This document shows, one piece after another, positions 4,909 through 46,627 of a stretch of 58,712 nucleotides of DNA (position 1 is the first letter of the stretch; each line of letters begins with the position of its first letter). Location: IMG/VR virus record IMGVR_UViG_3300049489_000482, positions 1 through 58,712 of that record. The stretch is one strand, 5' to 3'. Both the position numbers and the translations under genes were made by a program. A model generated the notes under the pieces. The model saw nothing but the letters and a program-made list of their open reading frames with translations, was not told the DNA's origin and ran no database searches. The DNA is from a virus.

Positions 4909-4991
4909 GGTGGTCGTTGTTTTCGTTGCGCTGTTTGTAGGTGCTGCCGTTCCGTTCGGCAAACCATTTCTCCACCAGCCTGTGGGCGGCT

Positions 4992-11032: not shown

Positions 11033-14000
11033 TCATTTCAGAGTGCTGCTCACCTGGTCGCTCATCGTCGGAAGAAGGTAGGCATAGACGTGCGTATTTC
11101 CGTCCGCGTCCTTCTTCACGCTCTGAACCAGCATCCGCTGGTTTGGCACCATGATCATCTCCTTCTCGCTCTTGTGGCTTGAGATGTTTCCGCCCACGTA
11201 GAGTCCACGCACTGCCGGCCCCGCCTTCATGTGGACGGTCACGTTGCCGCTCCACGCCGTGGTGATTACGGACGTCGAGATGATGGCCGGGTCCTGAAGC
11301 ACTTTCCCGGTGGAGTTCAGCAACTTTGCGTAGTCGGCCGGGTCGTTAAACGAGAACTTGCGTGCCAGCCATGTGCCCTCCGGTATCGGCTGCGCCGCCT
11401 TCTCCAATGCCAGCGCGGCGGCCACTCCGGAGCTTCCCTTTTTCTTCTGCATCAACTGCGGGTTCTGGCTCAGATAACCGCTTCCAGTGTATGCCTTGAT
11501 CTCGGCGCGTTCCGATTCTGTCAGTGCGGCGTAGGCGGCTTCGTGCTGTTTCTGAAGCTTCGAGGACGAGTTGTTGAAGTCTTTGGTGTTCTCAAATGTG
11601 CCCATGTTTCCGGCGAGCGGTTTGAACTCGCCGAGGACGTGATACCTGCCGATGTCGTTGTAGATGCCCTTCTTTGCCGAGAGCGGGAACTCTTCATGCA
11701 GCGTTTTGAAGTCGCCGACCAGATCCTTGACCGGCTTCACCGGCTCCGGCGGTGGAGGCGGGTTCTTCACCGCGTCGATGACGTCGAGCAGTTTCTGTTT
11801 GTATTCGGCGAGCTTCGGCGACTTCGTGGCGTCGATGGCATTGATGCCGGCCACGTCCCCCTTGAATGCGAGCGCGTAAGCCTTCGCCGCAGCGTCCTCG
11901 TTCAGCTTCTTCACCGCGAGGTTGCTCGTGGTAAACACCGGAGGCTTGATCGGCTCGACGGCCTTTGCGATGACCTGGTCGAGCGGCTTGCTGACGGACG
12001 GAGCGGTCGCCTTTGCCTGGCCCGCCGCCGCCTGGATAATCTTCGACGCCGAGATGGTTACGGCAGGAGCGGCCGGCGCGGCCACCGCACCTTCCGGCTT
12101 CGGGTTCGCGGCCAGATGCGCGAGCAGCGCCTCTTTGTAGGCGTGTTGCTGCTTGGCGTATGTTTGCTTGGCATCGGCCTTCGTGTAGACGGCTGAAATC
12201 TTCGCGGCATCACCGGTCAGTGCCGCCGCGTGAAGCGCGTTTACTTTGGCGTTGTGGACTGGACCATTCGCGACGCTGGCGGTCAGCGGTGGTTTCGGAA
12301 TCGAATCAACCCACTTTGCGTGCGCCTTCTCCGCTGCCTCCTTGGATGCCACGGCTGCGGCGCCGTGCTTCTGCTCCATCTCGGTGAGTATCATAGCGTA
12401 CACCTGAGCAGCGGCCTTCTGGTACGGGTTCGGCGACTTGGTCTTGCTCAGGTCGTAGGCGTGCTTCTTCAGTTCATCGATGTTCCCGGTGTCAGCGGCC
12501 TCTTCCATCTTGGCGATCTTGTTGACCGCCCAGTGCGCCGCGCTGTTGTGCGCCGGCCACTCGGTGACGTCCAGCGATTGGATGTGCTTCAGCGGCTTCT
12601 CCACCTTTCCAAGCGCCTTCTTCTCCGCCGCCGCCGTGGTGGCGATGGATGCGGCCACGGAATCCGGTTCCGTTGCGGTGACCGGCTCGGGCTTCGTGGC
12701 AAGCCCGGCCTTCTCCAGAATCGCGTCGCGCCGCTGCTTCAGCACCGACGCCATCGCCGCAGCCTTGTCGCCGACGAGGAACTGCTGCGTCAGGTTGTCG
12801 ATCTGCGCGTCGGTGACGGTTTGCAGCGCCTGCGCCGACTCCTTCAGCGCTTCTGGCGTCATGTCCTTGAATACGTGCGCGGCCTGCGGGTTCAGTTTCT
12901 GGTCGCGCATCGTGTCCCATTCCTTCGGGTCCGCGCCGAACTCCTTCTTGCCTCCCTGCGCCCGGTATTCGAGAGAACCGCCTGTGTCCACCGTGGTGAT
13001 TTTCTTGGTGTCGTTGTTCCAGACCTGGTTGTCGTAGCTGGCGCCGATGGCGTCCCAGTTCCCAAGCCACGCATGGACCGCGAACGCCTTTTGAGCGGCC
13101 TTGCGCTCACCTTCGCTGTTCTGGTCAAACGGCGCTTTGTTCAGCCACGGCGTCGCGGTCATTACCTGCGATTTCGCCGAGTTGAATGCGACGCGATAAT
13201 CCGGCACGGACTGGCCGGCCGCCTTGTAGAGATTTGCCGCCAGCACTTCCTGGACGGCCTGAGCGCCACCACCCTTCGGCTCCTTCACGTACCACTTCGA
13301 TCCGTCCGGAGCCTGCATCACGCTCGCCGGGTTGCTGCCCTGCTGCCCGCCGATGACCTTCCAGCCAGTGGTGTTTACCGGCACGTCAGGTTCGGAGCCG
13401 CCCGCGGGCGGGTTCGACGCGCTGTCACCGGCGCTGCCCTGCCCGACGTGGCACTCCTTGTCGCCAGCGATCCACGAGTCGCCACATGGTTGACCGCCCT
13501 CGTTGGCGGCGTGTTTGGTGGAGCGAAACTCATGGCCCGGAAGGTCGCCATTCGCCGCCTCACGCTCACTGATCCCGAGCATCTCGTTGACGAGGTTCTC
13601 CGCGCGTCCGCTCTCGCTGAACGGTTGCGTAGTGTCCCCGTGCGCCAGCCACGCCTTGAGCGTGCCCACGTCCGTGCGCGTCTGCGCGCTGATGCGGGTG
13701 TCCGCGCTGCCGTCGCTGAAACTGCGCCGGTATGCTACCAGCGCCTGGGTCGGCGCGCTGAACCCGAGCATGACCTTGTGCTCGTCAAACTCGCCCGTGT
13801 CCGGGTCCGCCTGGTCGATGACGAGGACGTGCGGTGAGTTCTCGTCCGGCCCGACGTAGCAGTCCACATGGTCGCCGTCGGCGCTGCGGGCGGATTCGTT
13901 GGCGACTGGTTTGCTGTGGTCTTTTCCGTGTGCCGCCCTGTCAATGGCCGGCAGCAGATCATGCCGCCCGGTAGCGTCTGCAAGCACCTGCCGGTCGCGG

Positions 14001-24496: not shown

Positions 24497-25270
24497 TCAG
24501 CCGCCCTTTACCGCCGTGATGATTTTATCGACGACGTGTCGAGGTGCCGGCGGCGGCGGCGAGTTCCACGCCCGTCGGTGTTCCTCGTAGCACGCCTCAA
24601 TGCGCGCCACGACGGCCTCGACGCCGGAGTCCGGCGCGGAACTGGTTGTGTCCGGCAGCACCGGGTTTGGCAGCGCGGGTCGCTCGGCGCGCATCGCCTC
24701 CGCGGCTAGTCCACCGCGTGGAATGGGCCGCGCGGCCTCCACGATGGCCGACGCGCCGCGTTTCGCCAGCGTCCGCTGTCTCGCCTTGGGCAGCTTGGCC
24801 ACGGCCTCTGCGGCGCGCAGGCTGACCTTTCCGGCCTTGACGAGCGCCTTCACCGGCTTCGCCGCCTTGGAGGCGACCGAGGCGGCCCGCTGGACGCTCC
24901 GCTCCGAGACGTGCAGTTGCTCGGCGACGCCGGCCTGCGTCAACCCGCCCGCGGGCGGGTTCGTGGCCCGCAGGATTTCCTCCGCCATCATGGAGCGCTG
25001 GCTCTCGGTGAGATGCCGGCGGCGCAGGTTCCGGCTGATGACGTAGGCCAAGGCATCGCTCCCCGTGAACGGCTCGACGCGGGGTTCGACCTTCGCGGCC
25101 TGGCAGGCAAGGTATCGGTTCCGTCCATCGAGGATTTGGCCGTCGAGCAGGACGATGGCTTCGCGCTGGCCGTGCGCCTTGATGTCGTCGGCGAGTTCAA
25201 AGATGCCCGCGGTGTCCATCGGTGGAAACATGGAGCACAGCGGGTGCAGTTCGTAGGTATTGGTTTTCAT
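24497..25270 (-). CDS. ParB/RepB-like N-terminal domain protein, 257 residues
   Basis: The N-terminal ParB-type domain is clear: MFPPMDTAGIFELADDIKAH, GQREAIVLLDGQILDGRNRY, AYVISRNLRRRHLTESQRSM, followed by an HTH-like region GVAEQLHVSERSVQRAASVA. In phages such proteins act as DNA-binding regulators or CTP switches near methyltransferases or terminase. ATG at 25270 overlaps the preceding stop. The dispersed palindrome sits in frame at 24942-24961 (ATNPPAGGLTQ), between the ParB and HTH parts. Confidence 0.85.
   Translation of the reverse strand: MKTNTYELHPLCSMFPPMDTAGIFELADDIKAHGQREAIVLLDGQILDGRNRYLACQAAKVEPRVEPFTGSDALAYVISRNLRRRHLTESQRSMMAEEILRATNPPAGGLTQAGVAEQLHVSERSVQRAASVASKAAKPVKALVKAGKVSLRAAEAVAKLPKARQRTLAKRGASAIVEAARPIPRGGLAAEAMRAERPALPNPVLPDTTSSAPDSGVEAVVARIEACYEEHRRAWNSPPPPAPRHVVDKIITAVKGG
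24942..24961. repeat. Dispersed GC palindrome, copy 3 (perfect 20-base)
   Basis: AACCCGCCC-GC-GGGCGGGTT, the longest perfect copy together with 51252-51271. It encodes NPPAGG in the ParB-like protein. Confidence 0.85.
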
Positions 25271-25767
25271 GGTGTCTCTTGGTTGTTGGTTTCGAGTTTG
25301 GCCAGCGCGCTGACCAGCGTGCCCGCCATGTCTTTGACGACCGCCGCGAGTTCGCGGACGGAAAGCCGATGCGCGCCACGGTCCACCCTGGCCGGCACGA
25401 CGACGCGCAGGTCGTGCAGGCGGACGTACCTCGACGCGGTGTCCGTGGTGAGCAGCCCGGCCCCGCTCGGGAGTTCTCCGATGACATCGGCGACCAAGGT
25501 TGGCGGAACCAAGAAGTAGAATTGCGATGGCTTCCTCGTCCACGGCAGTTGCTCCCGGTATTGCATGACGCGCTTCTTTGCGTTGGCGCGGAAGTCCGCC
25601 TTGGTGACCTTGACCTCAATCTCGATCACGGTCCGTTTCGGCGTCACCCCGACGACGTCCGGGATGCCGATCCACCGAGCCGGTGCCCGCTCGCAGGCCA
25701 CGACGATGCTCTGCCGGGTGTAGCGCAGCCAGTTGCAAGCGCAGGCTTTAAGGTAGTTCGCCGTCAC
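25267..25767 (-). CDS. PD-(D/E)XK nuclease-like protein (MmcB-type), 166 residues
   Basis: GTG at 25767 overlaps the TGA of the methyltransferase gene (GTGA). The core GIPDVVGVTPKRTVIEIEVK has the PD...ExK pattern, followed by ADFRANAKKRVMQYREQLP and FYFLVPPTLVADVIGELPSG. This looks like DNA-repair putative endonucleases (MmcB-type). Overlap on both sides suggests coupled translation with the methyltransferase and the ParB-like protein. Confidence 0.7.
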   Translation of the reverse strand: MTANYLKACACNWLRYTRQSIVVACERAPARWIGIPDVVGVTPKRTVIEIEVKVTKADFRANAKKRVMQYREQLPWTRKPSQFYFLVPPTLVADVIGELPSGAGLLTTDTASRYVRLHDLRVVVPARVDRGAHRLSVRELAAVVKDMAGTLVSALAKLETNNQETP

Positions 25768-26936
25768 AAAAGTCCCGGTGTTGTGGCGCAACGCTGGCGC
25801 GCGAGATTGGCGTAGTCCGGGTTCAGTTCGACCAGGACCGCGTTGCGTCCAAGTTCGATGGCGACGCGGCCCGTCGTTCCGGATCCGCCGAACGGGTCCA
25901 GGACCGTGCCCATCCTTGGGCAGCCGGCCAGAATGCACGGCTTGACCAGCGCCTCCGGGAATGTCGCGAAGTGCGCCCCGCTGTAGGGTTGCGATGGGAT
26001 CGTCCAGACGCTCCGCTTGTTGCGCTCCGCAACGACATCCTTCACGGCCCCACTGAACGACGCGTTGGCCCGCGTGGTGTCCCGGTCCGCGATCTCCGCC
26101 TTCGGGTTCACACCGGGCCGGTGCATGTGTTCCATCGTCCGGCTCAGTGTTTGGTTTCCGGGCCATCCGCGCGCGTATCTGGCGTGGCTGTCTGGACTGC
26201 CCGGCTCGCGGATGGCGTCGGCGTCGTAGTGGTAGCGGGCCGACTTGCTCAGGATGAACAGGTATTCATGGGCCTTCGTGCAGCGATCCTCGACGCTCTC
26301 CGGCATCGGATTCGGCTTGTGCCAGATGATGTCCTGCCGCAGATACCAGCCATCCGCACGGAGCGCGAAGGCAACCATCCAAGGGATGCCGATCAGGTTT
26401 TTCGGCTTCAGGCCATAGATCAAAGCCCGCCCGCATCGGTTGCTGACTTCCTGGTTGCTTTGCCCGCCGCCGAGAGTGCTACCACCAAGGCCGCCGCTCG
26501 GCCCGCTATTGTAGGTATCCCCCAAGTTAAGCCACAGCGTGCCGTCGTCGCGCAGCACCCGGCGAACCTCGCGGAAGACGGCGACCATCGTGGCCACGAA
26601 TTCCTCGACGCTCGCCTCGAGTCCGATCTGCGCGTCGATTCGCGTGGCCCCGCACTTCTTGCATCGGCTCGCGAACGGCATCCCTCCGGCTCCCTCCTTG
26701 TATTCCGTCCCGCCGCCGTTGTTCCATTCGCCGAGCGTTGACTTGCTGCTCGTCTGGCTCCGGCCTTTGTGGTCGCACTCCGGGTCGCCGCCGACCCACT
26801 GACCCGTGCCGTAGTCGCGCAATCCCCAGTATGGCGGCGATGTCACGCAGCAATGCACCGCTTGGTCTGGAAACGTGGCGAGAACCTTACGGCAGTCGCC
26901 GACGTGGATTGTGACTTTGGGAATCGCTGTTTTCAT
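25764..26936 (-). CDS. Site-specific DNA methyltransferase (N4-cytosine/N6-adenine), 390 residues
   Basis: Catalytic motif SPPYW at residues 33-37 near the N-terminus and S-adenosylmethionine motif VLDPFGGSGTTGRVAIELGR near the C-terminus give the beta-type order. An inserted zinc knuckle (PECDHKGR ... SRCKKCGATR) and DGTLWLNLGDTYNSG plus DIIWHKPNPMPESVEDR are typical of phage enzymes. It probably masks phage DNA from host restriction. ATG at 26936 follows the leader GGCAACGAAAAACGA. Confidence 0.9.
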   Translation of the reverse strand: MKTAIPKVTIHVGDCRKVLATFPDQAVHCCVTSPPYWGLRDYGTGQWVGGDPECDHKGRSQTSSKSTLGEWNNGGGTEYKEGAGGMPFASRCKKCGATRIDAQIGLEASVEEFVATMVAVFREVRRVLRDDGTLWLNLGDTYNSGPSGGLGGSTLGGGQSNQEVSNRCGRALIYGLKPKNLIGIPWMVAFALRADGWYLRQDIIWHKPNPMPESVEDRCTKAHEYLFILSKSARYHYDADAIREPGSPDSHARYARGWPGNQTLSRTMEHMHRPGVNPKAEIADRDTTRANASFSGAVKDVVAERNKRSVWTIPSQPYSGAHFATFPEALVKPCILAGCPRMGTVLDPFGGSGTTGRVAIELGRNAVLVELNPDYANLARQRCATTPGLL

Positions 26937-26959
26937 TCGTTTTTCGTTGCCGCCATACA

Positions 26960-26977
26960 ACCCGCCCACGGGCGGGT
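26960..26977. repeat. Dispersed GC palindrome, copy 4, intergenic
   Basis: ACCCGCCC-AC-GGGCGGGT in the 48-base space between TerL and the methyltransferase gene, in the 5' leader of the latter. Confidence 0.8.
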
Positions 26978-29502: not shown

Positions 29503-30939
29503 TCAGAGGCGTTCCGGTTTGTGGCCGGCCTGCTCCATGCGGTCGAGCGCCACGGCGACGTATCGCGGGTCCAGTTCAATGGCTCGGGCGATGCGTTGGA
29601 GCTTGTCGGCGGCGACCATCGTGGCGCCGGCTCCGTGGAAGTTGTCGAGGACGATCTGGCCTGGCTTGGTGCTGTTCTCGATGGCGCGTGCGGCGAGTTC
29701 GACGGGCTTCTGCGTCGGGTGCAGATACTCCGCGGCGTTGTCGCGTCCGATTTCCCATGCGTCGGTTGGCTGCGGGTTCCCGATGGTGATGCGGTTGCCA
29801 GTCTTGACGCGGATGTGGCGCCACTTGCCCTTCGGCGGCTTGCTGCGGATGAATAGGTGCGCGTTGGCGCCGTTGGAGATGTGGAGTCCGCTGGCGACGG
29901 CGATGTGGATGTCTCCGCCGCTGGCCTCCGCGATCCGCCAGACGGTGGCCTGCGTCCGATCTCCGTGGAATGAGGCGCTTCCGTCGGCGCGCTCGCAGTA
30001 GAAGCATGGCTCCGTCTGCCAGTGATAGTCGGCGTGGCCGAGAACAAATCCCTCCTTTACCCATGTGATGTATTGCTTCTCGCGCAGCCCGACGGCGTCG
30101 AGGGCGTGTTCGAAGTCGCGCCGAGTGGCTGCCGCGTGCCAGATGTAGGCAGCTCCGTTCCTGGCGAGCCGCTCGACGGCCGGACGCATGGCGGGGATCA
30201 GGAAGTTTGCCAGCGCGTTGTGTGTCAGGTCGTCGTTTGCGATCTTCTTCTTCCCTTTGGCCTGGTAGCTCACGCCGTATGGCGGGTCGGTGTAGTAGAG
30301 CTGGACGGTTTCCGCGTCGAGCAGGCGCTCGTACAGCTTCGGGTCGGTGCTGTCTCCGCAGACGATGCGGTGCGGGCCGGCCCGCCACATGTCCCCGACC
30401 TTCACCGCCCACTTGGCGTGCAGTTCCTCGATGCGCTGTTCCGTGGCGGACGGCTGCGGTGTTTCGTTGGTGTCGCCGGTCGCCAGCAGCCGCTTCAGTT
30501 CCGCCTCGTCGAACCCGACGACGGTCATGTCCACATCCTCCTCGAGTAGCGCCTGCAGTTGCGACCGCAGACGTTCGTCGTCCCAGTCGCCTCCGTGCTT
30601 GTTGGCGGCGATCATGGCGGCGGTTTCCGTGGTCTTGTCCCATGTGACTTCGCGGTAGCTGAACCGTTCCCCTTCAAACTCGATGTGCCCAAGCGCCGTC
30701 GTTCCGGTGCGTGTCGGCTTCGTGAAGCGATGAGTGATCTCCGGTACGCTCTCCTTTGGGTTGAAGTTCTTCACGCGCTGATGCCCGCCCACGGCGTGCC
30801 CGGTCTTGGTGTTGAAGATGATGCCGCTCAGGTCGCCGAACCGGCGCATGGATTCCCGCAGCGCCTGCAGCTTTGCGTCGGTGATGACGCGCGGATTGTC
30901 GGGGTGCGGAGGCGGTAGTGCGGACTTCGTTGTTTTCAT
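29503..30939 (-). CDS. ParB domain fused to DNA methyltransferase, 478 residues
   Basis: Residues 1-150 are a ParB-like domain (NPRVITDAKLQALRESMRRF; TGHAVGGHQRVKNF). Residues 190-478 are a DNA adenine/cytosine-N4 methyltransferase with TDPPYGVSYQAKGKKK and, near the end, LHPTQKPVELAARAIENSTK and FHGAGATMVAADKL (SAM-binding, with FHG..A replacing FxGxG). This fusion is common in phages. ATG at 30939 (MKTTKSALPP). Confidence 0.9.
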   Translation of the reverse strand: MKTTKSALPPPHPDNPRVITDAKLQALRESMRRFGDLSGIIFNTKTGHAVGGHQRVKNFNPKESVPEITHRFTKPTRTGTTALGHIEFEGERFSYREVTWDKTTETAAMIAANKHGGDWDDERLRSQLQALLEEDVDMTVVGFDEAELKRLLATGDTNETPQPSATEQRIEELHAKWAVKVGDMWRAGPHRIVCGDSTDPKLYERLLDAETVQLYYTDPPYGVSYQAKGKKKIANDDLTHNALANFLIPAMRPAVERLARNGAAYIWHAAATRRDFEHALDAVGLREKQYITWVKEGFVLGHADYHWQTEPCFYCERADGSASFHGDRTQATVWRIAEASGGDIHIAVASGLHISNGANAHLFIRSKPPKGKWRHIRVKTGNRITIGNPQPTDAWEIGRDNAAEYLHPTQKPVELAARAIENSTKPGQIVLDNFHGAGATMVAADKLQRIARAIELDPRYVAVALDRMEQAGHKPERL

Positions 30940-36969: not shown

Positions 36970-37428
36970 TTATTTGTTCGTCCAACAAATCAGCACGCCC
37001 TCAAACGGCAAGCCGTGTGTCGTCTCGAACCACTGTAGCATTTCGAGACGGTTAGCAAAGCCATCGGCGCGAGCGAATGCTTCCTCGTCGTGAAGTGCGA
37101 GGCCGCAGAGGGTGCATCCAAGCGCGCTGATTGTGATCGGCAGCGTTTTGGTGATGACCGCTTCCCGGAGCACTCGCTGTTTCGAGCGATATGGTTTGCC
37201 CGTCCATGAGCGCAGGCTGATACGGTCGCCCGGTTCCGGCATCCGTTTCGGCGTCGGGCGGACTGTTTGCAGCTTCTCGCCGCGCTCGACGAGTTCCGCA
37301 AACTGCGGCTTGAACATCCGCACAAAAGAGGATGAACCAGCCGCTTCAGCGATCGGATGGATTGCGTCTCTAGTGTTTTTCATAGCATTGGCCCAGCCGT
37401 CGCTGAGTTTGGGTCGTTCGATCTTCAT
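36970..37428 (-). CDS. ASCH-domain protein carried on a former cassette, 152 residues
   Basis: The ASCH-like core is MFKPQFAELVERGEKLQTVR, PTPKRMPEPGDRISLRSWTG and AFARADGFANRLEMLQWFET, a fold linked to RNA and modified-base binding. The first ~30 residues (ERPKLSDGWANAMKNTRDAI...) are encoded by an attC-like site at 37331-37422, and GTTCGTC at 36976-36982 nearly matches its R'' box, so the gene probably arrived as an integron cassette. The ATG at 37428 overlaps the DnaC-like gene's stop. Confidence 0.75.
   Translation of the reverse strand: MKIERPKLSDGWANAMKNTRDAIHPIAEAAGSSSFVRMFKPQFAELVERGEKLQTVRPTPKRMPEPGDRISLRSWTGKPYRSKQRVLREAVITKTLPITISALGCTLCGLALHDEEAFARADGFANRLEMLQWFETTHGLPFEGVLICWTNK
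37331..37422 (+). other. attC site outside the array (cassette scar)
   Basis: R'' GATGAAC (37331-37337), L'' CAGCGA(T)CGG with an extra base, L' CCGTCGCTGA and R' GTTCGAT (37416-37422); the 3' half differs from that of the array site at 43342-43434 at only a few positions. Orientation is the same as in the array. Confidence 0.7.
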
Positions 37429-39303: not shown

Positions 39304-40416
39304 TCACCTTGCTCCGAGCAGTTCCTGTGAGTCAACGATTTCGTAATCGAGCGCCCGGTATACCTCCACGCGGCGCCTGCTGTGCTTCGCCATCAGCGGG
39401 TGCTGGTGATCGGTGAAGTCGTAGATTGTCCCGTGCTCTTTGCCGGCAAACGCGCGCAGCACGCGGCCCGTCCTCTGCTCCGTCTTGGTGCTGCTTCGCC
39501 CACCGCTGACGAGCACCAGCACGTTCGCCCTGGGAAGGTCCAGCCCCTCGTCGGCGAGTGACGTTGCCACGATGCACCACACGGTGCCCGCCTGGAACGC
39601 CTGGAGCGCCTCACGCCGCGCCTTCGCGCCCATCTTGCTGTGGCACAGCCTAGCGCCCGGCAGGCGCGCACACAGGGCATCCCCGTGCTCGATCTGGTTC
39701 ACGAGAACCAGCACGGCGTCGCCCCGATGCGCGAGCGCAGCGGCCACGGCCGCCTCGTTCCTGGCGCGGTTCTGGACGATGCCCATTTCGATGCACGCCT
39801 GCCACGCCACCTGTCCCCACAGTTGGCCGGGGTCGCCCCTCCAGAACCGTTGCCGCCAGCGCATGTCGGTGGCGATCTTGGCGTCAATCGGCTGTTGCAG
39901 GTCCGGGTCTGTCGCGTCGAGCATGACGACGCGGGCGTGCGCGAGACGCCTGGCCACCGCCTGCCGGTCGATGGTGAATCTGTCGGTGCCAAAGATGACA
40001 GCCATCGCCTCGTTCCGCTCCGGGTCTTCGCTGTACGGCGTCGCGGTGAATCCCCAGCGTGCGCCCGTGCAGGACTCGATCTGCGTGCGCCACGCGGGCG
40101 CTGGCGCGTGATGGCACTCATCCACGATCAGCAGCGCGCAGTCGCTCCAGTCGGTTGCGGCCGCCGCGCAGGCAACGCGCCGCTCGATGCGGCACGGGAA
40201 GTTGTCGAGTGCCTTATGCGCCTGCTGGCACTGCTCCTGTGTGTTCGCCATCCAACCGACGCGCACGGGATGCTCGCGACCTCGGGCGGTGACCACGGAC
40301 TGGATTGCCGCCGCTGCGATGACCGTCTTGCCGCTTCCGGCCGGCGCGATGCAGATGGCCCGACGCCGGGTGCGTATCCACTCGACTGCGCTCTTCTGGT
40401 AGAGTTCGAGGGTCAT
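39304..40416 (-). CDS. SF2 DNA helicase (UvsW/RadD-like), 370 residues
   Basis: Walker A CIAPAGSGKTVIAAAAI (residues 24-31), DECHH box IVDECHHAPAPAWRT, SAT-like GFTATPYSEDPER, and motif VI QRTGRVLRAFAGKEH. It probably unwinds recombination or replication intermediates. Its ATG overlaps the TGA of the integron integrase gene (40413-40416), tying the integron into the phage replication operon. Confidence 0.9.
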   Translation of the reverse strand: MTLELYQKSAVEWIRTRRRAICIAPAGSGKTVIAAAAIQSVVTARGREHPVRVGWMANTQEQCQQAHKALDNFPCRIERRVACAAAATDWSDCALLIVDECHHAPAPAWRTQIESCTGARWGFTATPYSEDPERNEAMAVIFGTDRFTIDRQAVARRLAHARVVMLDATDPDLQQPIDAKIATDMRWRQRFWRGDPGQLWGQVAWQACIEMGIVQNRARNEAAVAAALAHRGDAVLVLVNQIEHGDALCARLPGARLCHSKMGAKARREALQAFQAGTVWCIVATSLADEGLDLPRANVLVLVSGGRSSTKTEQRTGRVLRAFAGKEHGTIYDFTDHQHPLMAKHSRRRVEVYRALDYEIVDSQELLGAR

Positions 40417-41363
40417 GCGTCGAGCGGGGATTTAACACTCAACGCATCGGCATGGCAGTAGCGCTCAGTGGTTGTGATCTGAGCGTGGCCCATCGCTTTG
40501 GCAAGTGCCTTGATGTTTGTCCCGCGATTCAGGCAGTGCGTGGCGTAACTGTGCCGCAGTTCGTGCGGAACAGCCATGATGCCAGTCTCTCGGCGAGCGC
40601 GTTTTACGGCGCGCTGAATCGTCGCAGTCAGGAGATGCCATCGAACCATCCGCCTCGGATCATGTGGGTCTGGTGACGGGTATTTCAGTGGAGTGAACCA
40701 TGCCCACTGCCATAAGCATTCAAACTCGGGATACTTGCGTGCCAGTTGATGCGGCAACTGGATTGGGATTTGGTCGCGCACGTCCCGCAACCACGTTTGC
40801 CGCGCCGCTTCCATCTGCTGCTCAATCCGACCAACCAGAGCGCACGGCATTTTGACGACACGGTCATGTCCACACTTCGGCTCGCGAATGGTGATCTGCT
40901 GCTGTCCGATGTCGATGTCCTTAATCCGAAGCGCAACTGCTTCACCCACGCGAAGCCCGCAGCCGTAAAGTAGATGCGTCACTAGGTTTGCAGGGTATCC
41001 TCCAGTGTCGCTCACCGCTGCCAGAAGCGTCCTTACTTCTTCCACCGGAAGCGCACGGCGCATGTGCTCTGGGCGTTGCGCCCGTAACGCGTCAATGTCC
41101 TTAAGTTTCACGCCGAGGCAGTCTCTGTAAAAGAACAAGATAGCATTGAACGCCTGGTTTTGTGTCGCTGCGGAAACGTCGCGAGCAGCAAGTTCTGTCA
41201 GGAACCGCTCCATCTTCTGCTCGCTGGTGAGCACGGACGGCATCTGGAATATGGCAGTGATGTAGCGCTTGATCCATTGTTTGTAATTGTCCTCTGTCGC
41301 CAGTGATTTGTGCTGTCTCCGCATCACATCCACCGCTCTCTGGATTGCCTGCTCCTTATTCAT
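40413..41363 (-). CDS. intI: Integron integrase IntI, 316 residues
   Basis: Tyrosine recombinase with R138 (GCGLRVGEAVALRIKDID), H267 and R270 (VPHELRHSYAT), H293 (AMGHAQI) and Y302. The IntI-specific patch is present at ~207-243 (ARKYPEFECLWQWAWF, PSPDPHDPRRMVRWHL), and the protein ends SVKSPLDA like IntI1's GVRSPLDA. The N-terminal SAM-like domain (ATQNQAFNAILFFYRDCLG) also matches. IntI cuts attC and attI to insert, excise and shuffle cassettes. ATG at 41363; an attI-like site starts immediately upstream. Stop overlaps the helicase start, so it is transcribed with phage genes. Confidence 0.95.
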   Translation of the reverse strand: MNKEQAIQRAVDVMRRQHKSLATEDNYKQWIKRYITAIFQMPSVLTSEQKMERFLTELAARDVSAATQNQAFNAILFFYRDCLGVKLKDIDALRAQRPEHMRRALPVEEVRTLLAAVSDTGGYPANLVTHLLYGCGLRVGEAVALRIKDIDIGQQQITIREPKCGHDRVVKMPCALVGRIEQQMEAARQTWLRDVRDQIPIQLPHQLARKYPEFECLWQWAWFTPLKYPSPDPHDPRRMVRWHLLTATIQRAVKRARRETGIMAVPHELRHSYATHCLNRGTNIKALAKAMGHAQITTTERYCHADALSVKSPLDA

Positions 41364-41399
41364 AAGCGAACACTTCCTTTGGCTTAAACACCGTTCCAC
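41364..41399 (+). other. attI-like recombination site
   Basis: Next to the 5' end of intI; the core is GTTCCAC (41393-41399) preceded by GCTTAAACACC, which resembles the CTAAAACAAA-GTTAGGC end of attI1. The box pairs with GTGGAAC, the R'' box of the first attC (41856-41862), as expected for the first cassette. The left part may extend into the intI coding region. Confidence 0.75.
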
Positions 41400-41403
41400 A
41401 TCT

Positions 41404-41850
41404 TCAATAGTCGCCCTCGTCGTTGTAGTCGTCCCAGTCCAGTTTGGCGTCTTTCCACTGCGCCGCCCCGCCGAGGTCATCGAGCAGCTTGCGCGCTTTT
41501 CGGGCGCGGTCTATCGCGGCTTGGCTCTTGATTGCTTCTTCCTCCAGTGACTTCTGGTAGCGGTCTATGACTTCCGCTGCCGAGCCTTTGCAGTGGCCGT
41601 ATCGCCGTTCCCAATCCACCACGGGCATCGTTTTCATTTCCTCGACTTCGTTGGCGAGGCGTTGGAGTTCGCCAGCGCTTTTGATGCAGGCGTTTTTTAG
41701 CGGCGCGAGTCCGGCGAGGATTTTCTCCATGCCGAGGATTGCGGTTGCGGCGCTTTCGCCGTCCTTCACTTCGACCGTCAGGTCGTAGCGGACGTGCTCG
41801 TAGTTGCCGAGGTTGTAGAGTCTGCCGATTGTGATTTTGGTTACGTTCAT
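41404..41850 (-). CDS. Cassette 1 gene: hypothetical protein, 148 residues
   Basis: ATG at 41850 lies 5 bases from the R'' box, and the stop at 41404 lies 4 bases past the attI core, so the gene fills the cassette. IGRLYNLGNYEHVRYDLTVE, VKDGESAATAILGMEKILAG and a helical half (GSAAEVIDRYQKSLEEEAIK) are seen. The first part (gnYEhvryelt) resembles small OB-like phage and plasmid proteins, but no function is known. Orientation is opposite to that usual for the attC. Confidence 0.7.
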   Translation of the reverse strand: MNVTKITIGRLYNLGNYEHVRYDLTVEVKDGESAATAILGMEKILAGLAPLKNACIKSAGELQRLANEVEEMKTMPVVDWERRYGHCKGSAAEVIDRYQKSLEEEAIKSQAAIDRARKARKLLDDLGGAAQWKDAKLDWDDYNDEGDY

Positions 41851-41855
41851 TCGAT

Positions 41856-41944
41856 GTGGAACAATTCAGTGCAGGCAACGGCGGGTTGCGCTGCGGGTTT
41901 ATTTCGAGTCGTCAGGTCCGCCGTGCCTGACTTCACCGTTGGAG
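41856..41944 (+). other. attC1
   Basis: R'' GTGGAAC, spacer AATTCAGT, L'' GCAGGC(A)ACGGCGG with an extra A relative to L' CCGCCGTGCCTGA, R' GTTGGAG. 89 bases. Confidence 0.8.
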
Positions 41945-42174
41945 GACTCCATGCCGGCGTTCGCGGTGTGCTGTTTCAGAGCCACCGGCACGGAGTCCAG
42001 ATTCAGTTTCTTTTGTGAGGCCGCACCGACCGCCCAGTCGCGGACTTGCAGCCAGATTTCTTGCTTCGATTTTTCCGTTTCGATTTTGGCTTCGATCCAT
42101 GCCCAGTCGCGCAGCTCGGCGAGCATCCACGCGAGTTCTTCCAGTCTCTTTGGGTTCGCCCGTCCTCCAACCAT
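41899..42174 (-). CDS. Cassette 2 gene: hypothetical protein, about 91 residues
   Basis: MVGGRANPKRLEELAWMLAE, then LRDWAWIEAKIETEKSKQEI and LQVRDWAVGAASQKK. A second ATG at 42246, inside attC2, would add 24 residues. The R' box here (GTTGGAG) gives no stop in this frame, so the gene reads 46 bases into attC1 before TAA at 41899. Helical, unknown function. Confidence 0.6.
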   Translation of the reverse strand: MVGGRANPKRLEELAWMLAELRDWAWIEAKIETEKSKQEIWLQVRDWAVGAASQKKLNLDSVPVALKQHTANAGMESSNGEVRHGGPDDSK

Positions 42175-42262
42175 TCCCTGATGCGAATCGCCACCGCGCC
42201 GCGCGCGTGGCAATTCGGGAGTCGGTTGAGCGGTGGCGATTCGCATAGGTCAGTCGTTGTCC
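42165..42262 (+). other. attC2
   Basis: R'' CTCCAAC, R' GTTGTCC (42256-42262). Between them a 15-bp perfect stem (42181-42195 with 42232-42246). 98 bases. Confidence 0.75.
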
Positions 42263-42543
42263 GTCTTTGCCGCCCACCGATCCACCGCGCGATGGTTGCT
42301 CCAGCATGGATGCAGTTCGACCGCGCGACGCATCGCGTCGGGGCTGTTTGCCCATCCCATCTGCATCGGCTTTCCCTCTTCGTCGTCGCACCATATTTCG
42401 TAGCGTTGTCCACGGTCGCCAACCGCCGGCAAAGACGGACAACCAGCCGGTGCAGCGAATGAGCCGCGAGGCTTTTTCCTGCATTTAGACCCGTCATTCC
42501 AACACTCCGCGAACTCCGGGGCGCAATCGTCACAGTGGCTCAT
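42250..42543 (-). CDS. Cassette 3 gene: hypothetical Cys-containing protein, 97 residues
   Basis: The in-cassette part is GQRYEIWCDDEEGKPMQMGW and ANSPDAMRRAVELHPCWSNH, clearly coding. The N-terminal part with MSHCDDCAPEFAECWNDGSK is encoded inside attC3, so translation starts in the recombination site. Unknown function. Confidence 0.6.
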   Translation of the reverse strand: MSHCDDCAPEFAECWNDGSKCRKKPRGSFAAPAGCPSLPAVGDRGQRYEIWCDDEEGKPMQMGWANSPDAMRRAVELHPCWSNHRAVDRWAAKTDND

Positions 42544-42564
42544 CGCTGACCTCCATCGTTAGGC
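42437..42564 (+). other. attC3
   Basis: R'' GGACAAC (42437-42443), L'' CAGCGA(A)TGAGCC, L' GGCTCATCGCTGAC, R' GTTAGGC (42558-42564). A 16-base inverted repeat (GGCAAAGACGGACAAC) also joins the two ends of cassette 3. 128 bases. Confidence 0.85.
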
Positions 42565-42822
42565 CGCATCGTATTCGGCCAAGATTGTTTCTGTGATCCT
42601 GACTGGCACATACTCGACTCCTGGGTCGGGCTTTGGCTTCCGAGAGATGGCCTCCATGACCTCGGCCCGGTCAAAGTATTGCCCCACGTCGCAGACCCAC
42701 TTTCTGTCCGCGAATTTCCGCAGCATCCAGTATTGGTCGGTTTTGGTTTCCGGCGGCCTAACCACGGCGCTGCTGCCAACAGCCGCCCCGCTTGGCACGC
42801 TCGGAGTCACAGGTTCTTTCAT
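42559..42822 (-). CDS. Cassette 4 gene: hypothetical protein, 87 residues
   Basis: DQYWMLRKFADRKWVCDVGQ, YFDRAEVMEAISRKPKPDPG and EYVPVRITETILAEYDAA. The stop codon TAA is formed by the R' box (GCC TAA C on the minus strand). Starts inside attC4 at ATG 42822. Unknown function. Confidence 0.65.
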   Translation of the reverse strand: MKEPVTPSVPSGAAVGSSAVVRPPETKTDQYWMLRKFADRKWVCDVGQYFDRAEVMEAISRKPKPDPGVEYVPVRITETILAEYDAA

Positions 42823-42882
42823 GGTTTCCTTTCCGCTCTACCCATGCCGTCGGGCGGCTGTGGCAGAGCTTGGTCGTTAGGA
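42756..42882 (+). other. attC4
   Basis: R'' GCCTAAC (42756-42762), L'' CTGCC(A)ACAGCCGCCC, L' GGGCGGCTGTGGCAG, R' GTTAGGA (42876-42882). 127 bases. Confidence 0.85.
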
Positions 42883-43092
42883 GACATTTTCTTCGGCCAC
42901 GTAAATGTTGTGTGCATTGTCTTTCCGGGTCACACACACTTGGTCATGCCATCCTTTGTGCGGATAGTTGGCGCACACTATCCCTTCGCCTCTGTATTCG
43001 GCGGTGTCCACCATTACTCGGTCGCCGATCTTGCGTCCCGGCCTGATTGCTTTTGCGAGCGCGTATAGCGCGTTTGATATTAGTGTTCTCAT
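42877..43092 (-). CDS. Cassette 5 gene: hypothetical protein, 71 residues
   Basis: MRTLISNALYALAKAIRPGR, KIGDRVMVDTAEYRGEGIVC, ANYPHKGWHDQVCVTRKDNA. Beta-rich, SH3/PDZ-like length. Stop TAA comes from the R' box GTTAGGA. The start has the phage leader ACAACAAACGA, unlike the other cassettes. Confidence 0.65.
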   Translation of the reverse strand: MRTLISNALYALAKAIRPGRKIGDRVMVDTAEYRGEGIVCANYPHKGWHDQVCVTRKDNAHNIYVAEENVS

Positions 43093-43125
43093 TCGTTTGT
43101 TGTCGCTGAGCTTGGGTCGTTAGGC
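43092..43125 (+). other. attC5, only the 3' half left
   Basis: L'/R' half TGTCGCTGAGCTTGGGTC-GTTAGGC (R' 43119-43125). No matching R''/L'' half is visible in cassette 5, so the site is probably truncated. Confidence 0.6.
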
Positions 43126-43338
43126 CACATACGTCGCCCATCGTTTATGCTGACCGCATCCTTCACCGAGCAGCCGCTCCACCGATTCGCGGCAGTCGGC
43201 GGCGTTGTGGATGAGCAGCGGGCCGTTGTCGTAGATTTCGCCGGTGCTGGGATGTTGCCACTCAGCGCGTGGTTCGCACCAGCACTGCGCGGAGTGCTCA
43301 TGTTCTCTTTCATCGTTTAGAGGTATGACGTTGACCAT
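43120..43338 (-). CDS. Cassette 6 gene: hypothetical protein, 72 residues
   Basis: MVNVIPLNDEREHEHSAQCW, CEPRAEWQHPSTGEIYDNGP, LLIHNAADCRESVERLLGEG. Start ATG at 43338 lies 3 bases from R'', stop TAA is made by the R' box: wall-to-wall in the cassette. The N-terminal segment (VNViPLnDereHeh...C.C.P....) resembles small phage proteins with a C/H cluster. Function unknown. Confidence 0.7.
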   Translation of the reverse strand: MVNVIPLNDEREHEHSAQCWCEPRAEWQHPSTGEIYDNGPLLIHNAADCRESVERLLGEGCGQHKRWATYVA

Positions 43339-43341
43339 GTG

Positions 43342-43434
43342 GCCTAACCATGCGCTCCAGCGAACCCGGCGGGGGCGTTGCGGTTGCAATCGTTGCCTCC
43401 CGTGCGCCGGGTCGCTGAGCTTGGGTCGTTCGCC
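43342..43434 (+). other. attC6
   Basis: R'' GCCTAAC, L'' CAGCGA(A)CCCGGC, L' GCCGGGTCGCTG, R' GTTCGCC (43428-43434). 93 bases. Both halves match the published cassette-PCR primer consensus (HS286/HS287) in this orientation. Confidence 0.9.
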
Positions 43435-43778
43435 AGATGCAGCAGCGGGAGCGTCTGCCCAGCCAGACCATCGGTCGAGTCGCCGAGGTGTTGGCACATC
43501 CCGTCCGTCAGCCAGATGTGGCTCACATTCCCGTCGGCGTGTGTTGTCTTCACGCTCGGCTTGAGCGTCGGCTTGAGCGTCGAGCCGTTCCACGTCCACG
43601 CATTTGCTGCGTCGCGGCTTCCGTGGGTGATGACTGGCAGCAGAATTGGGAACTCGTAGCCGTGCGGCTGGAAGCGCAGATAGTCGCGACCGTTGCGATG
43701 CTCCAAACACGAAACTGGCGAACAAGGCGCTGCACCCGCAACTGCCGCTTCGCCTGTCCGTTCAGAGTCAGATTTCAT
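43344..43778 (-). CDS. Cassette 7 gene: DUF6527-like protein, 144 residues
   Basis: The part TLKPTLKPSVKTTHADGNVS, HIWLTDGMCQHLGDSTDGLA, GQTLPLLHL fits DUF6527 (usual form CHxFVxDGxIxFLxDCTHxLAGQ), with Ser and Asp replacing the usual Cys and His. A 12-base tandem repeat makes TLKPTLKPS. Because the R' box GTTCGCC gives no stop, the gene runs ~30 residues through attC6 to TAG at 43344. Its ATG at 43778 is in attC7 and overlaps the Dam stop. Confidence 0.75.
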   Translation of the reverse strand: MKSDSERTGEAAVAGAAPCSPVSCLEHRNGRDYLRFQPHGYEFPILLPVITHGSRDAANAWTWNGSTLKPTLKPSVKTTHADGNVSHIWLTDGMCQHLGDSTDGLAGQTLPLLHLANDPSSATRRTGGNDCNRNAPAGFAGAHG

Positions 43779-43844
43779 TTCGATTCGTTTCTTTGCGCTC
43801 GACCCGTCCCGCCAGCGGCAGTGGGGTGAGCTTGGCTGTTCGCC
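43717..43844 (+). other. attC7
   Basis: R'' GGCGAAC (43717-43723), 5' half AAGGCGCTGCACCCGCAACTGCCGC, 3' half GCGGCAGTGGGGTGAGCTTGGC (written as plus strand), R' GTTCGCC (43838-43844). 128 bases. The left half carries extra bases. Confidence 0.85.
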
Positions 43845-44404
43845 AAACGAATGACGCGCCCCGGTAGTCCCGAGCGTTCGAGGGCCAGCGTGTTCGTTTC
43901 GTCGTAGGAGATGAGCGCGGACGGTCCGCCAGCGTTTGCCCCTGCCCGCGTCCCGTCCACATGGTAGAAGTAGAGCCGCCCCCACAAGAACAGGATCGCG
44001 TGCGCCTTCTTCCAGACGTGCTCCACCCAATCCGCTGTTTCCGTCCGTGCAAAGATCAGCGCGGTTGCGTTGCCGTGCTCCGCGCACCGTGCCAGCCAGC
44101 GCCCCGTCTCGCGGCCATACGGAGGATTGCACCAGACGCGACCACTCCACGGCAGCCGCAGCCCATTGTCGCGCACCGTGTAGTGCTTCGATGCAGTCGG
44201 CCACGGCCGATTGATCGGGCTGCACGGGTCGAGGTCGAAAGCCCCGAGAGCGGTCAGGATCTCGGGCGGCGTCAGCCACTCGTCTTTGCCCATCCGGTGC
44301 GAGTGATGCCCCCCGATGCCGCGACCAGAATTGGCGAACCAGGCGGTGGACTCAACAGCCATGAGCGGCGGAGTTTCGAGGGTAGCGGAGTCGTTTGCGC
44401 TCAT
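43775..44404 (-). CDS. Cassette 8 gene: phage-type DNA N6-adenine methyltransferase (Dam family), 209 residues
   Basis: GGHHSHRMGKDEWLTPPEIL, TALGAFDLDPCSPINRPWPT, GRVWCNPPYGRETGRWLARC, LIFARTETADWVEHVWKKAH and LYFYHVDGTRAGANAGGPSA: the whole phage Dam family, with catalytic NPPY. It would modify adenines, probably to escape restriction. The start ATG (44404) is in attC8; an inner ATG is at 44293. The C-terminal 20 residues (LANSQAHPTAAGG...) are attC7 sequence, and the stop overlaps the next gene. Confidence 0.9.
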   Translation of the reverse strand: MSANDSATLETPPLMAVESTAWFANSGRGIGGHHSHRMGKDEWLTPPEILTALGAFDLDPCSPINRPWPTASKHYTVRDNGLRLPWSGRVWCNPPYGRETGRWLARCAEHGNATALIFARTETADWVEHVWKKAHAILFLWGRLYFYHVDGTRAGANAGGPSALISYDETNTLALERSGLPGRVIRLANSQAHPTAAGGTGRAQRNESK

Positions 44405-44431
44405 GGTGGTGCCATCGCTTATGCGTTCGAG
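44333..44431 (+). other. attC8
   Basis: R'' GGCGAAC (44333-44339), paired arms CCATGAGCG / CGCTCATGG, R' GTTCGAG (44425-44431). 99 bases; weaker than the others outside R''. Confidence 0.65.
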
Positions 44432-44583
44432 CGCCGGGCGACGCGCTTGGGTTTGCGTTTCGTTTTTGCCCACCGAGCGGCCACTGCCGCCCGTGCCTGT
44501 TCGGAACTTCGCGCCTTGGCCGCGCCCGTCCCGGCTTTGCCGCCGAGTCTGCCGAGCGCGACCGCCGCTGGATTTTTAGTCAT
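44419..44583 (-). CDS. Small basic KGG-like protein, 54 residues (cassette 9)
   Basis: MTKNPAAVALGRLGGKAGTG and AKARSSEQARAAVAARWAKT match a widespread short protein family with LGRxGGK and ARAAVxxRW repeats, found in phages and bacteria; function unknown. Stop TAA lies beside the R' box of attC8. Overlaps the 96-residue gene by 8 bases. Confidence 0.7.
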   Translation of the reverse strand: MTKNPAAVALGRLGGKAGTGAAKARSSEQARAAVAARWAKTKRKPKRVARRSNA

Positions 44584-44866
44584 TGCTCGTGTCCTCCACC
44601 TCTCGAACGTAGTCCTTGCGGTCTTGGGCCGTGCCTTTGGCTTGGCCGGGGTCGTTGTCGCCGGGCAGAATGAGCCGGTATTTAGACTCATCGCGCCAAA
44701 GTTGGTAGCGGGCCTTGTCTGCCTCATCGTAGTCCGTCCATGCCCCGCGAAATTGCCAAGAGACCGTCTTTAGCTCCTCGTCGTATTGCCGCACAAACAG
44801 CCGGTAGTGAGTCGCGGTGTCGTAGGTCTGTTGCTCGCCTTTGTGAGTTGTCGCTGTGTTGGTCAT
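44576..44866 (-). CDS. Hypothetical protein, 96 residues (first gene of the array transcript)
   Basis: MTNTATTHKGEQQTYDTATH, YRLFVRQYDEELKTVSWQFR, GAWTDYDEADKARYQLWRDE. Start 42 bases downstream of the -10 element at 44908-44913. Function unknown. The box CTCGAAC at 44602-44608 could be a relic R'' for cassette 9, inside this gene, but no attC structure surrounds it. Confidence 0.65.
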   Translation of the reverse strand: MTNTATTHKGEQQTYDTATHYRLFVRQYDEELKTVSWQFRGAWTDYDEADKARYQLWRDESKYRLILPGDNDPGQAKGTAQDRKDYVREVEDTSND

Positions 44867-44907
44867 TTGCTTTTGGTGTCTCGGCTTACTGGGCCTCAAC
44901 TGCAAAC

Positions 44908-44936
44908 ACTCTACGCAAGCGGTTGCGTATATGCAA
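44908..44936 (-). promoter_or_regulatory. Sigma70-type promoter with internal inverted repeat, driving the cassette array
   Basis: On the minus strand: TTGCAT (44931-44936), 17-base spacer, TAGAGT (44908-44913). The spacer overlaps an inverted repeat ACGCAA-ccgc-TTGCGT (44913-44928), a likely operator. It is at the distal end of the array and points toward intI. Confidence 0.7.
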
Positions 44937-44956
44937 GAGTTATTTTCACATTGCTT

Positions 44957-44984
44957 CCGATCTGCTTAACTTGGGTCGGTAGGC
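44957..44984 (+). other. Degenerate attC 3' half at the end of the array (attC9)
   Basis: TCTGCTTAACTTGGGTCGGTAGGC matches the L'/R' consensus, with R' mutated to GGTAGGC. It encodes the last residues (PTDPS) and the stop of the helicase gene. No 5' half seen. Confidence 0.55.
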
Positions 44985-46627
44985 ACCAGTGAGAGAGCCT
45001 TGCGTGCCTCCTCACGTCCGGCTCTGTTAGGACCGCTACCCGCCGATGTGATCGTCAGTCTGTGCTTTGCCCTGGTCATCGCCACGTAAAACAGCCGCCG
45101 ATCTTCCTCGCTCGGCTCTTTGGCTGCGGCGGCGCTCTCGTCGCACTCGGGCAAGACCACGTTGTCGAACTCAAGACCTTTCGCTCCGTGCATCGTCATG
45201 ATGCGGATGCCGTCCATGTCGCCCGCCATCACGCGCTTCGTTTCCTCATTGCAGATGCTGATGAGCAGGTCGCCCATTGTCGCACGCGCCGGCAGTGTGC
45301 CCGCGATTTCCTCCACGATGTCGGCGCTGGCCGCCGTGCATCCGTGTGCCCTCACCACTCGGGCGGCGTAGTGTGGCGTGAACTGGCCACCCTCGACGCA
45401 AATTCCGCTCGCGCCGGCCAGCGTGGTGCCGCCCTGGATTGCAGCCAATCGAGCCTCGTTGATCTGTGCCGGCGTCCTGCCGCACTGGCGCAGGTAGCTG
45501 GCGGTGATCTCCGTGTTGCTCGGGTTCGCCAGAACCGCCAGCAGCGTTTTGGCTTTGCGCCAGTCCTCCGGGAAGACGCGATCCTTGCGGATGGCCAGCG
45601 GATAACCGTGCTCCGCAAGTAGCGCGGCGAACCGTTGCACCTGTGCGTTGGTGCGGACCAGGATGGCGGTTGCTGACGATTCGTCCTCCAGTTCCTGGCT
45701 CAGGTGGCCCATGAGTTCGGTGTCCTCGGCGCCGCGCGTCGCGTAGTAGGAGACCACCACCGCTCCGCCTTCGTGCTCCGCAGTCATGTTCTGCTGCGCC
45801 CGCTCCTTGTTCTGCTCGATCACTTTCCGCGCCGCGTCGCAAATGGCTTTCCGGCAGCGGTAGTTCCGTTCGAGCCTGATGACGTTCCACTCCGGGCTGT
45901 TGAAGTGCTCCATGAACAACTCCACCTTGGCTCCACGGAATCGGTAGATGCTCTGGTCGGGGTCGCCGACCACGAACTTGGTCTTGGTGGTGATGGCGTC
46001 GTAAATCTCCCAGTCCAGCGCGCTCGAATCCTGCGCCTCGTCCACGAGCAGGTGCCTGACCGGAACAAGTCCTACCGGAGCGATCTTGATCAGGTCGCGT
46101 CCCACGTCGAGCAGCGTGTCAAAGTCGAGCATGCCGGTGCGCGCCATCGTCGCCCGGAACTCCGCCGCCACAAGTTCCGCCGCCGTCGGCGGATTGCTAC
46201 GCGCCGGGTAGTGCCGTAGCGCGTCCGTCAGCGCGGTCTTGGTGCCCTTGTATCCGAGGCGCTTCTTGACGCCGTCCAACAGTTCCTCCGCAGCGTCCTC
46301 GTCGATAATTGTCGGCGGGACGAAGATGCCGACCAGACACCGCGCGGCCTCTTTGGTGAGCAGTCGGAAGAGCCAGCCGTGAAGCGTGCCCACGTAGCCG
46401 AGCCGCTGCGCTGCGGCCTCGTTGCGGCCCGCCGCGAGGCGCTGAACCATCTCGCCGGCTGCGGCGTTGGTGAACGTGATCGCCACGATGCCGGCCGGGT
46501 CCTCGCCGCTGTCGAGCAGGTGGTTGATGCGCTCGACGAGCACCATCGTCTTTCCGGAGCCTGGCGTGGCGACGACGAGCGTGTTGCGGTGCGGTGTGGT
46601 AACGGCGAGTTTCTGTTGATCGTTCAT
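44966..46627 (-). CDS. UvrD/Rep-type SF1 DNA helicase, 553 residues
   Basis: Motifs: Walker A VVATPGSGKTMVLVERINHL, DEAQD in HLLVDEAQDSSALDWEIY, GDPDQSIYRFRGA, ERNYRC, MTMHGAKGLEFDNVV and LFYVAMTRAKHRL. Complete at 553 residues, short for UvrD (about 720). It would unwind DNA in replication or recombination. ATG at 46627 follows A-rich leader AAACGAAAAACGA. C-terminus is made by a degenerate attC. Confidence 0.95.
   Translation of the reverse strand: MNDQQKLAVTTPHRNTLVVATPGSGKTMVLVERINHLLDSGEDPAGIVAITFTNAAAGEMVQRLAAGRNEAAAQRLGYVGTLHGWLFRLLTKEAARCLVGIFVPPTIIDEDAAEELLDGVKKRLGYKGTKTALTDALRHYPARSNPPTAAELVAAEFRATMARTGMLDFDTLLDVGRDLIKIAPVGLVPVRHLLVDEAQDSSALDWEIYDAITTKTKFVVGDPDQSIYRFRGAKVELFMEHFNSPEWNVIRLERNYRCRKAICDAARKVIEQNKERAQQNMTAEHEGGAVVVSYYATRGAEDTELMGHLSQELEDESSATAILVRTNAQVQRFAALLAEHGYPLAIRKDRVFPEDWRKAKTLLAVLANPSNTEITASYLRQCGRTPAQINEARLAAIQGGTTLAGASGICVEGGQFTPHYAARVVRAHGCTAASADIVEEIAGTLPARATMGDLLISICNEETKRVMAGDMDGIRIMTMHGAKGLEFDNVVLPECDESAAAAKEPSEEDRRLFYVAMTRAKHRLTITSAGSGPNRAGREEARKALSLVPTDPS

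Follow-up and report, generated by a model that had tools for sequence, protein, structure and literature searches.

The IMG/VR virus record IMGVR_UViG_3300049489_000482 (58,712 bases) was analysed in its entirety and is referred to here as the window. The best overall explanation of its sequence, which we consider highly probable, is that a tailed phage harbours a complete integron as a resident element, with inverted cassettes and of a lineage that recurs in many environmental phages. Integrons are known as bacterial gene-capture devices that spread antibiotic resistance. A complete integron at positions 40413 to 44984 had been proposed in a first-pass annotation, and this was confirmed by the profile, fold and tree placement of the integrase IntI, by an attI-like site and by six attC sites found with a covariance model. 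The inverted polarity of the cassettes and a lone attC cassette at 37331-37422 had been overlooked. At the level of the sequence, the anatomy of the element, its polarity, the complementarity of the cassette ends, its recurrence and one precise event at the attI of a related phage, by which two cassettes were gained or lost, are established.

The window, which may itself be a fragment of a genome, contains genes for a terminase large subunit (phrog_979, 3.7e-161), a Mu-type portal (PF06074, 8.4e-56) and a major head/capsid protein (phrog_1005, 1.7e-12), as well as protease, scaffold, replication initiation and helicase-loader genes. Therefore, it was assigned to the tailed phages (Caudoviricetes). 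The phage may be virulent, as the first-pass term 'lytic-type' implies: no tyrosine recombinase other than IntI and no serine resolvase turned up in this possibly incomplete record. All 71 genes called by the codon model in the whole window lie on the minus strand. At the locus, the order on this strand is a UvrD-like helicase gene, ten small genes, intI and an SF2 helicase gene, and the integron is bordered by overlapping coding sequences at both ends. The stop codon of intI and the start codon of the SF2 helicase gene share ATGA at 40413-40416, so that the overlap and the shared strand described in the first-pass annotation were found again.

Integron integrase

The intI gene (40413-41363, minus strand, ATG at 41363) encodes a protein of 316 amino acids, which was identified as an IntI-type tyrosine recombinase by profile family, tree and fold. 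In the profile search, the integron integrase family TIGR02249 was by far the best match with 254.8 bits, compared to about 105 bits for XerC/XerD, and PF00589 and PF13495 were matched as well. The catalytic residues R138, K163, H267, R270, H293 and Y302 are all present and aligned with those of the relatives, as had been stated before. The best Foldseek match of the predicted fold (predicted local distance difference test 85) was the Vibrio integron integrase 2A3V, with a template modelling (TM) score of 0.78, while Xer, lambda and Cre structures scored clearly lower. A Xer-type protein outside the integron clade had initially been considered as a way in which the proposal could fail. In trees with Xer outgroups, IntI was placed inside the integron clade and Xer outside. 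XerC/XerD and ordinary phage tyrosine integrases thus share the superfamily with the IntI of the window, but differ from it in their lower profile score, lower fold similarity and position outside the IntI clade.

The nearest IntI sequences are viral, with 61 % identity for L002 and 56-57 % for L003-L005. The grouping of the window with L002 is supported by values of 100/100 and a group of eight viral sequences by 95/99. Near them in the tree are four Verrucomicrobiota loci, the nearest bacterial sequences, with 50-52 % identity. On this comparison, Verrucomicrobiota are the bacterial kin of the integron lineage. The link is drawn from the similarity of IntI and attC, and the Verrucomicrobiota are no more than candidate hosts, as the window terminase gave only weak matches to 289 Verrucomicrobiota genomes.

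Irregular integrase genes were seen at other loci. A viral contig (L122:4596-5506) carries a second, probably partial intI copy upstream of the first, with a 93 % match to the intI region of L123. In a Verrucomicrobia metagenome-assembled genome (L015:6001-7160) the integron integrase is frameshifted and the array is well formed, and the intI of viral contig L008 is also frameshifted. Virus Rctr41k (KX853513, L189), a phage from an enrichment culture, has an IntI-like gene at 4680-5678 that is annotated as xerD and lies in a one-strand operon; the covariance model found no attC in it.

Recombination sites and cassette boundaries

The attC sites were detected with a home-made scanner for the fold with extrahelical bases and with a covariance model, R1, trained on 37 attC sites that were all taken from loci other than the window. 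R1 also detects the attC of a class 1 integron (L186). No match was obtained in the window with Rfam at gathering scores. R1 called six sites in the array at E-values from 1.5e-17 to 5e-8 (none above 5.3e-8), which answers the earlier concern that a covariance model might call no attC. With the scanner, the exact canonical fold of 3 bases, an extrahelical base, 5 bases, an extrahelical base and 6 bases (score of at least 13.5) was found at four sites of the window, in each case with the two extra bases in the left arm, and was absent from eight dinucleotide shuffles of the whole window and from the other strand. An attC array with R and L boxes and extrahelical bases is thus present.

The attI-like simple site CTTAAACACC-GTTCCAC lies at 41383-41399 on the plus strand, about 20-36 bases upstream of the start codon of intI. 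Its core, GTTCCAC at 41393-41399, had already been recognized, and the crossover falls at 41393 between G and TT. The motif is conserved upstream of intI in the viral relatives and in one Verrucomicrobiota relative, mostly as TAATCACT-GTT, and GTTCCAC is the exact complement of the R'' box of the first cassette, GTGGAAC at 41856. An attI beside intI, as in integrons, is therefore indicated by the conserved motif and by a precise cassette junction at this place in the related contigs L106 and L097.

All attC sites of the window lie on the plus strand. Well-formed sites are attC1 (41856-41944, E 1.3e-15), attC2 (42165-42262, E 1.5e-9), attC3 (42437-42564, E 1.1e-11), attC4 (42756-42882, E 8.8e-9), attC6 (43342-43434, E 1.5e-17) and attC7 (43717-43844, E 5.3e-8), of which attC6 is 81 % identical to an attC of the Verrucomicrobiota integron L014. 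The weak site attC8 (44333-44431) has an R1 E-value of 0.84 and an R'' box matching its own cassette start. Two half-sites were missed by R1 or are degenerate: attC5 (about 43102-43125, GAGCTTGGGTCGTTAGGC) lacks the left arm and was missed, and the array closes distally with a degenerate half-site (44964-44987, or about 44970-44987) that reaches into the 3' end of the UvrD-like gene and contains CTTGGGTCGGTAGGC, which resembles the right arms of other sites. The original count of six good sites, one weak site and two half-sites was thereby upheld within its range. It has to be extended by the weak candidate attC9 (44602-44660), missed by R1, whose R'' box CTCGAAC matches the cassette start GTTCGAG at 44425, and by the attC at 37331-37422 outside that range.

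A comparison was possible for seven attC sites. In these, the R'' box is complementary to its own cassette's start box at all 28 variable bases, compared to 14 of 28 for the box across the attC. This pattern is characteristic of cassettes that came in as circles and were assembled by recombination.

The lone attC outside the array (37331-37422, plus strand; R1 43.7 bits, E 8.5e-10) is read through by the gene of its cassette (36970-37428, minus strand; phrog_8581, 1.4e-12). The probable cassette limits are 36977-37416, and the start box GTTCGTC at 36976 matches the R'' box GATGAAC at 6 of 7 bases. This looks like an off-site insertion of an inverted cassette of the array type. It adjoins the helicase-loader gene, before the next gene, and its open reading frame has an N-terminal stretch encoded by the attC.

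Inverted cassette polarity

Judged by their extra bases, the attC sites of the window have the bacterial direction, away from intI. The cassette genes, by contrast, all face intI and run against the attC sites, in the direction of the phage operon. The best minus-strand open reading frame of the array region has a coding score of 93, compared to 2.8 for the best on the plus strand. In a two-strand scan of 29 non-duplicate viral loci, attC sites pointed away from and towards intI in a ratio of 63:0 and genes ran along and against attC in a ratio of 0:93, whereas the latter ratio was 18:1 at 11 bacterial loci. With the covariance model, the corresponding counts at 40 viral loci were 163:0 and 0:154. 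The 163:0 count is not independent, since the training sites were all in canonical orientation, and the 63:0 count is the unbiased one. The polarity is also supported by domain matches, namely Dam in the window and C5, N6/N4, MT-A70, Dam, Mom, GNAT and ASCH in the relatives. In the viral relatives, many genes stop in the neighbouring R' box or extend 30-50 bases into that attC (62 cases examined). One locus (L007) was considered as an exception and rejected, as the pooled gene model agrees with the rule and the earlier model had been trained on the wrong strand, with intI uncalled. In usual integrons, genes are oriented with attC and read from the promoter Pc at attI, whereas all genes here oppose attC. 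As this orientation is usual but lies outside the recombination definition, the element was classified as a variant of the integron.

A mechanism consistent with these data would have IntI recombine the folded attC of circular cassettes with the attI just upstream of intI, in the bacterial manner, so that each circle would be inserted at attI with its attC pointing away from intI. As insertion by IntI would fix the direction of attC and phage transcription is confined to one strand, expression would be limited to cassettes whose genes are inverted, and this may be the reason why phage cassettes carry their genes inverted relative to attC. Each cassette gene would begin at its own attC and end at or just past the cassette start. 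Upstream phage promoters would drive read-through of the cassettes, then of attI and intI, and finally of the following phage gene, with intI being read late, after the cassettes, and a Pc promoter near attI would not be required. Both the catalysis by IntI and the read-through transcription are what we infer from the arrangement.

The polarity also bears on another reading, in which IntI would mainly be a lysogeny integrase that inserts the phage into chromosomal attC arrays of the host, with the cassettes acquired by imprecise excision. IntI is the sole tyrosine recombinase in the window, as it is in 29 of the 35 related viral contigs, and a search of 18 records yielded no serine resolvase. 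Furthermore, a Vibrio phage excised at attC sites has been published (PMC9892861), and the similarity of attC6 to a Verrucomicrobiota site would suit such an origin. However, host-derived cassettes would keep the bacterial polarity, whereas the phage cassette genes are all inverted, intI and the array lie within a phage operon whose neighbouring genes differ between phages, and the L097/L106 phage has an ordinary integrase besides IntI. We therefore regard this reading as unlikely.

Recurrence and apparent activity in related phages

The search of viral contigs for IntI that had been suggested with the first-pass annotation returned many contigs with the same layout of attC array, attI and intI, often with an ATGA overlap with the next gene. 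Inverted-cassette integrons were found in the window and about 40 related viral contigs, which come from different metagenomes and several of which bear terminase or portal genes. The intI gene and array adjoin different phage genes in different phages. This recurrent layout, together with the IntI clade and the model-called attC sites, supports the earlier view that the integron is a resident part of the phage operon.

Evidence for activity was obtained from L106 and L097, contigs from different metagenomes that share 99.98 % identity over 9 kb spanning intI and the sequence downstream of it and belong to a phage with terminase, portal and major head genes. L097 lacks 1443 bp, which are exactly two cassettes of L106, and the joint is at the attI core between G and TT. 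In L106, AACATCGTT is followed across the crossover by GTATTT and CGCACGTT by AGATTTTTTGCG, while in L097 AACATCGTT is joined directly to AGATTTTTTGCG. Therefore, the system appears to be active in this phage. A further contig with 98 % identity, L098, ends at the same attI crossover point (L098:1-44), as would be expected if cassettes at attI varied in the population. The near-identical pairs L142/L148, L131/L132, L123/L125, L009/L010, L103/L111 and L222/L223 have identical arrays and are uninformative on activity. A site with 95 % identity to attC1 of the window occurs in phage contig L102, whose IntI shares about 49 % identity with that of the window, and relatives of cassette 9 occur in the arrays of other phages. 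On these matches, sites and cassettes are common to distant phages.

Several points weigh against the interpretation of an active, phage-resident integron, in addition to the canonical orientation of the covariance training sites. The inverted polarity corresponds to about four changes on the tree, with two independent contrasts on well-supported branches and four on all branches, so that the correlation of polarity with phages is clean but not statistically independent. The bacterial controls comprise 11 loci only, and the gene caller was home-made. L097 ends about 120 bp past the junction, and the deleted form therefore rests on a single contig end. As no near relative of the window phage with a different array was found, activity in the window itself rests on the complementarity of the cassette ends.

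The TIGR02249 score of IntI, 10 bits below the curated cut-off of 265, together with two half-sites and two weak sites that lie mainly towards the distal end of the array, would suit a relic, an integron captured once and now inactive, whose attC sites are decaying and whose genes persist as ordinary phage genes. This is improbable in our assessment, since the catalytic residues are intact, the cassette ends exactly match their own starts, the proximal attC sites are well formed, cassettes were precisely gained or lost in a related phage, and a near-identical attC occurs in an otherwise distant phage. An assembly chimera or host contamination, conceivable for a metagenomic contig, is hardly credible because the same layout recurs in many contigs of different metagenomes, several with terminase or portal genes, in agreement with the previous statement that the locus is not a host fragment; moreover, coding sequences overlap the integron at both sides and its polarity is opposite to that of host integrons.

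Cassette genes and phage backbone

The ten cassette genes lie on the minus strand. The gene of cassette 1 (41404-41850) encodes 148 amino acids, has no assigned function and is the open reading frame with the coding score of 93. It is followed by those of cassette 2 (41899-42246, up to 115 amino acids, alternative start 42174, stop within attC1) and cassette 3 (42250-42543, up to 97 amino acids, from the gene calls), both likewise without an assigned function. Stop codons in a GTTAGGC box were found for cassette 4 (42559-42822, 87 amino acids) and cassette 6 (43120-43338, 72 amino acids), and in a GTTAGGA box for cassette 5 (42877-43092, 71 amino acids). The gene of cassette 7 (43344-43778) reads through attC6. 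Cassette 8 (43775-44404) encodes a Dam-type DNA adenine methyltransferase (PF05869, 3.3e-12 on an open reading frame of 232 amino acids), and cassette 9 (44419-44583) a basic protein of 54 amino acids, with similar proteins or DNA in the arrays of L101, L104 and L152. The gene of cassette 10 (44576-44866, 96 amino acids) is based on the gene calls and has no assigned function.

Twenty large cassette genes from related phages include those for C5, N6/N4, MT-A70 and Dam DNA methyltransferases, and others encode a protein of the Mom family, an acetyltransferase of the GNAT type and an ASCH protein. The most likely function of the system is the swapping of small accessory genes between phages. Many of the swapped genes probably serve DNA modification and hence counter-defence, and a methyltransferase-rich cargo would suit the evasion of restriction.

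The flanking backbone genes are the UvrD-like helicase gene upstream of the array (44966-46627, minus strand; PF00580, 1.2e-39), for which zero relatives were found in the viral contigs, and the SF2 helicase gene downstream of intI (39304-40416, minus strand; PF00271, PF04851). The latter has three viral relatives (L163-L165), all without attC and too distant for a comparison of empty sites.

Outside the integron, the surroundings of the terminase gene include a ParB-like gene (24497-25543) and genes for two DNA methyltransferases, one at 25764-26969 and one at 29503-30939 whose N-terminal part is ParB-like. A protein of 1554 amino acids (11033-15697) matches minor head, endolysin and DarB-like families, contains a nudix-like region and has a weak ADP-ribosyltransferase-like match at its C-terminus.

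Comparison with known systems

Phages appear to run their own version of the integron, and the reversed polarity fits one-way phage transcription. This would explain changes of accessory genes in blocks in some phages and would form a counterpart, on the phage side, to the integrons that serve as stores of anti-phage defence. It also provides a natural setting in which to test whether selection or the way in which cassettes arise determines their polarity. A wider proposal, to which we give an even chance, is that phages keep their own integron lineages and an opposite-polarity cassette pool, exchanged between unrelated phages and specialized in counter-defence. The phage and bacterial pools would then be two economies sharing the recombination chemistry but hardly usable crosswise.

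Classical integrons, whether class 1 or chromosomal as in Vibrio and Verrucomicrobiota, likewise have IntI, an attI beside the 5' end of intI, attC sites with two extrahelical bases pointing away from intI, and complementarity of R'' and cassette start. Unlike in these, the phage cassette genes oppose attC and run towards attI and intI, and the array is part of a phage operon. The 'reverse' integrons of Treponema (PMC3607928, PMC4909258) also have intI and cassette genes on one strand. However, in the Treponema type intI is transcribed towards attI and the cassettes away from it, whereas in the window the cassettes run towards attI and intI away from it.

The first-pass annotation had suggested that an integron resident in the replication operon of a virulent phage might be new. 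The general idea of integrons in phages has been published (PMC9892861). No report was found of a phage-resident IntI lineage or of inverted-polarity arrays; as subscription journals and preprints were mostly outside the search, the novelty is provisional. The complete integrons described in temperate phages are captured Vibrio, class 1 or Shewanella types, and virulent phages had attC clusters without integrase only (Qi et al. 2023, PMC9892861). For TJE1 and PH101, the typical cassette direction was described (PMC9892861). In the attC cluster of TJE1, one site was found with the extrahelical-base scan (1016-1075, on the strand of its upstream gene) and none with the covariance model. Phage attC sites were shown to work with IntI1, and published phage cassettes also carry methyltransferases (PMC9892861). 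The phage integrons and clusters of attC sites lacking integrases of Qi et al. 2023 thus share phage-borne attC sites, cassettes and methyltransferase cargo with the window, but unlike in those cases, the integrase lineage of the window is phage-resident and its cassette polarity is inverted.

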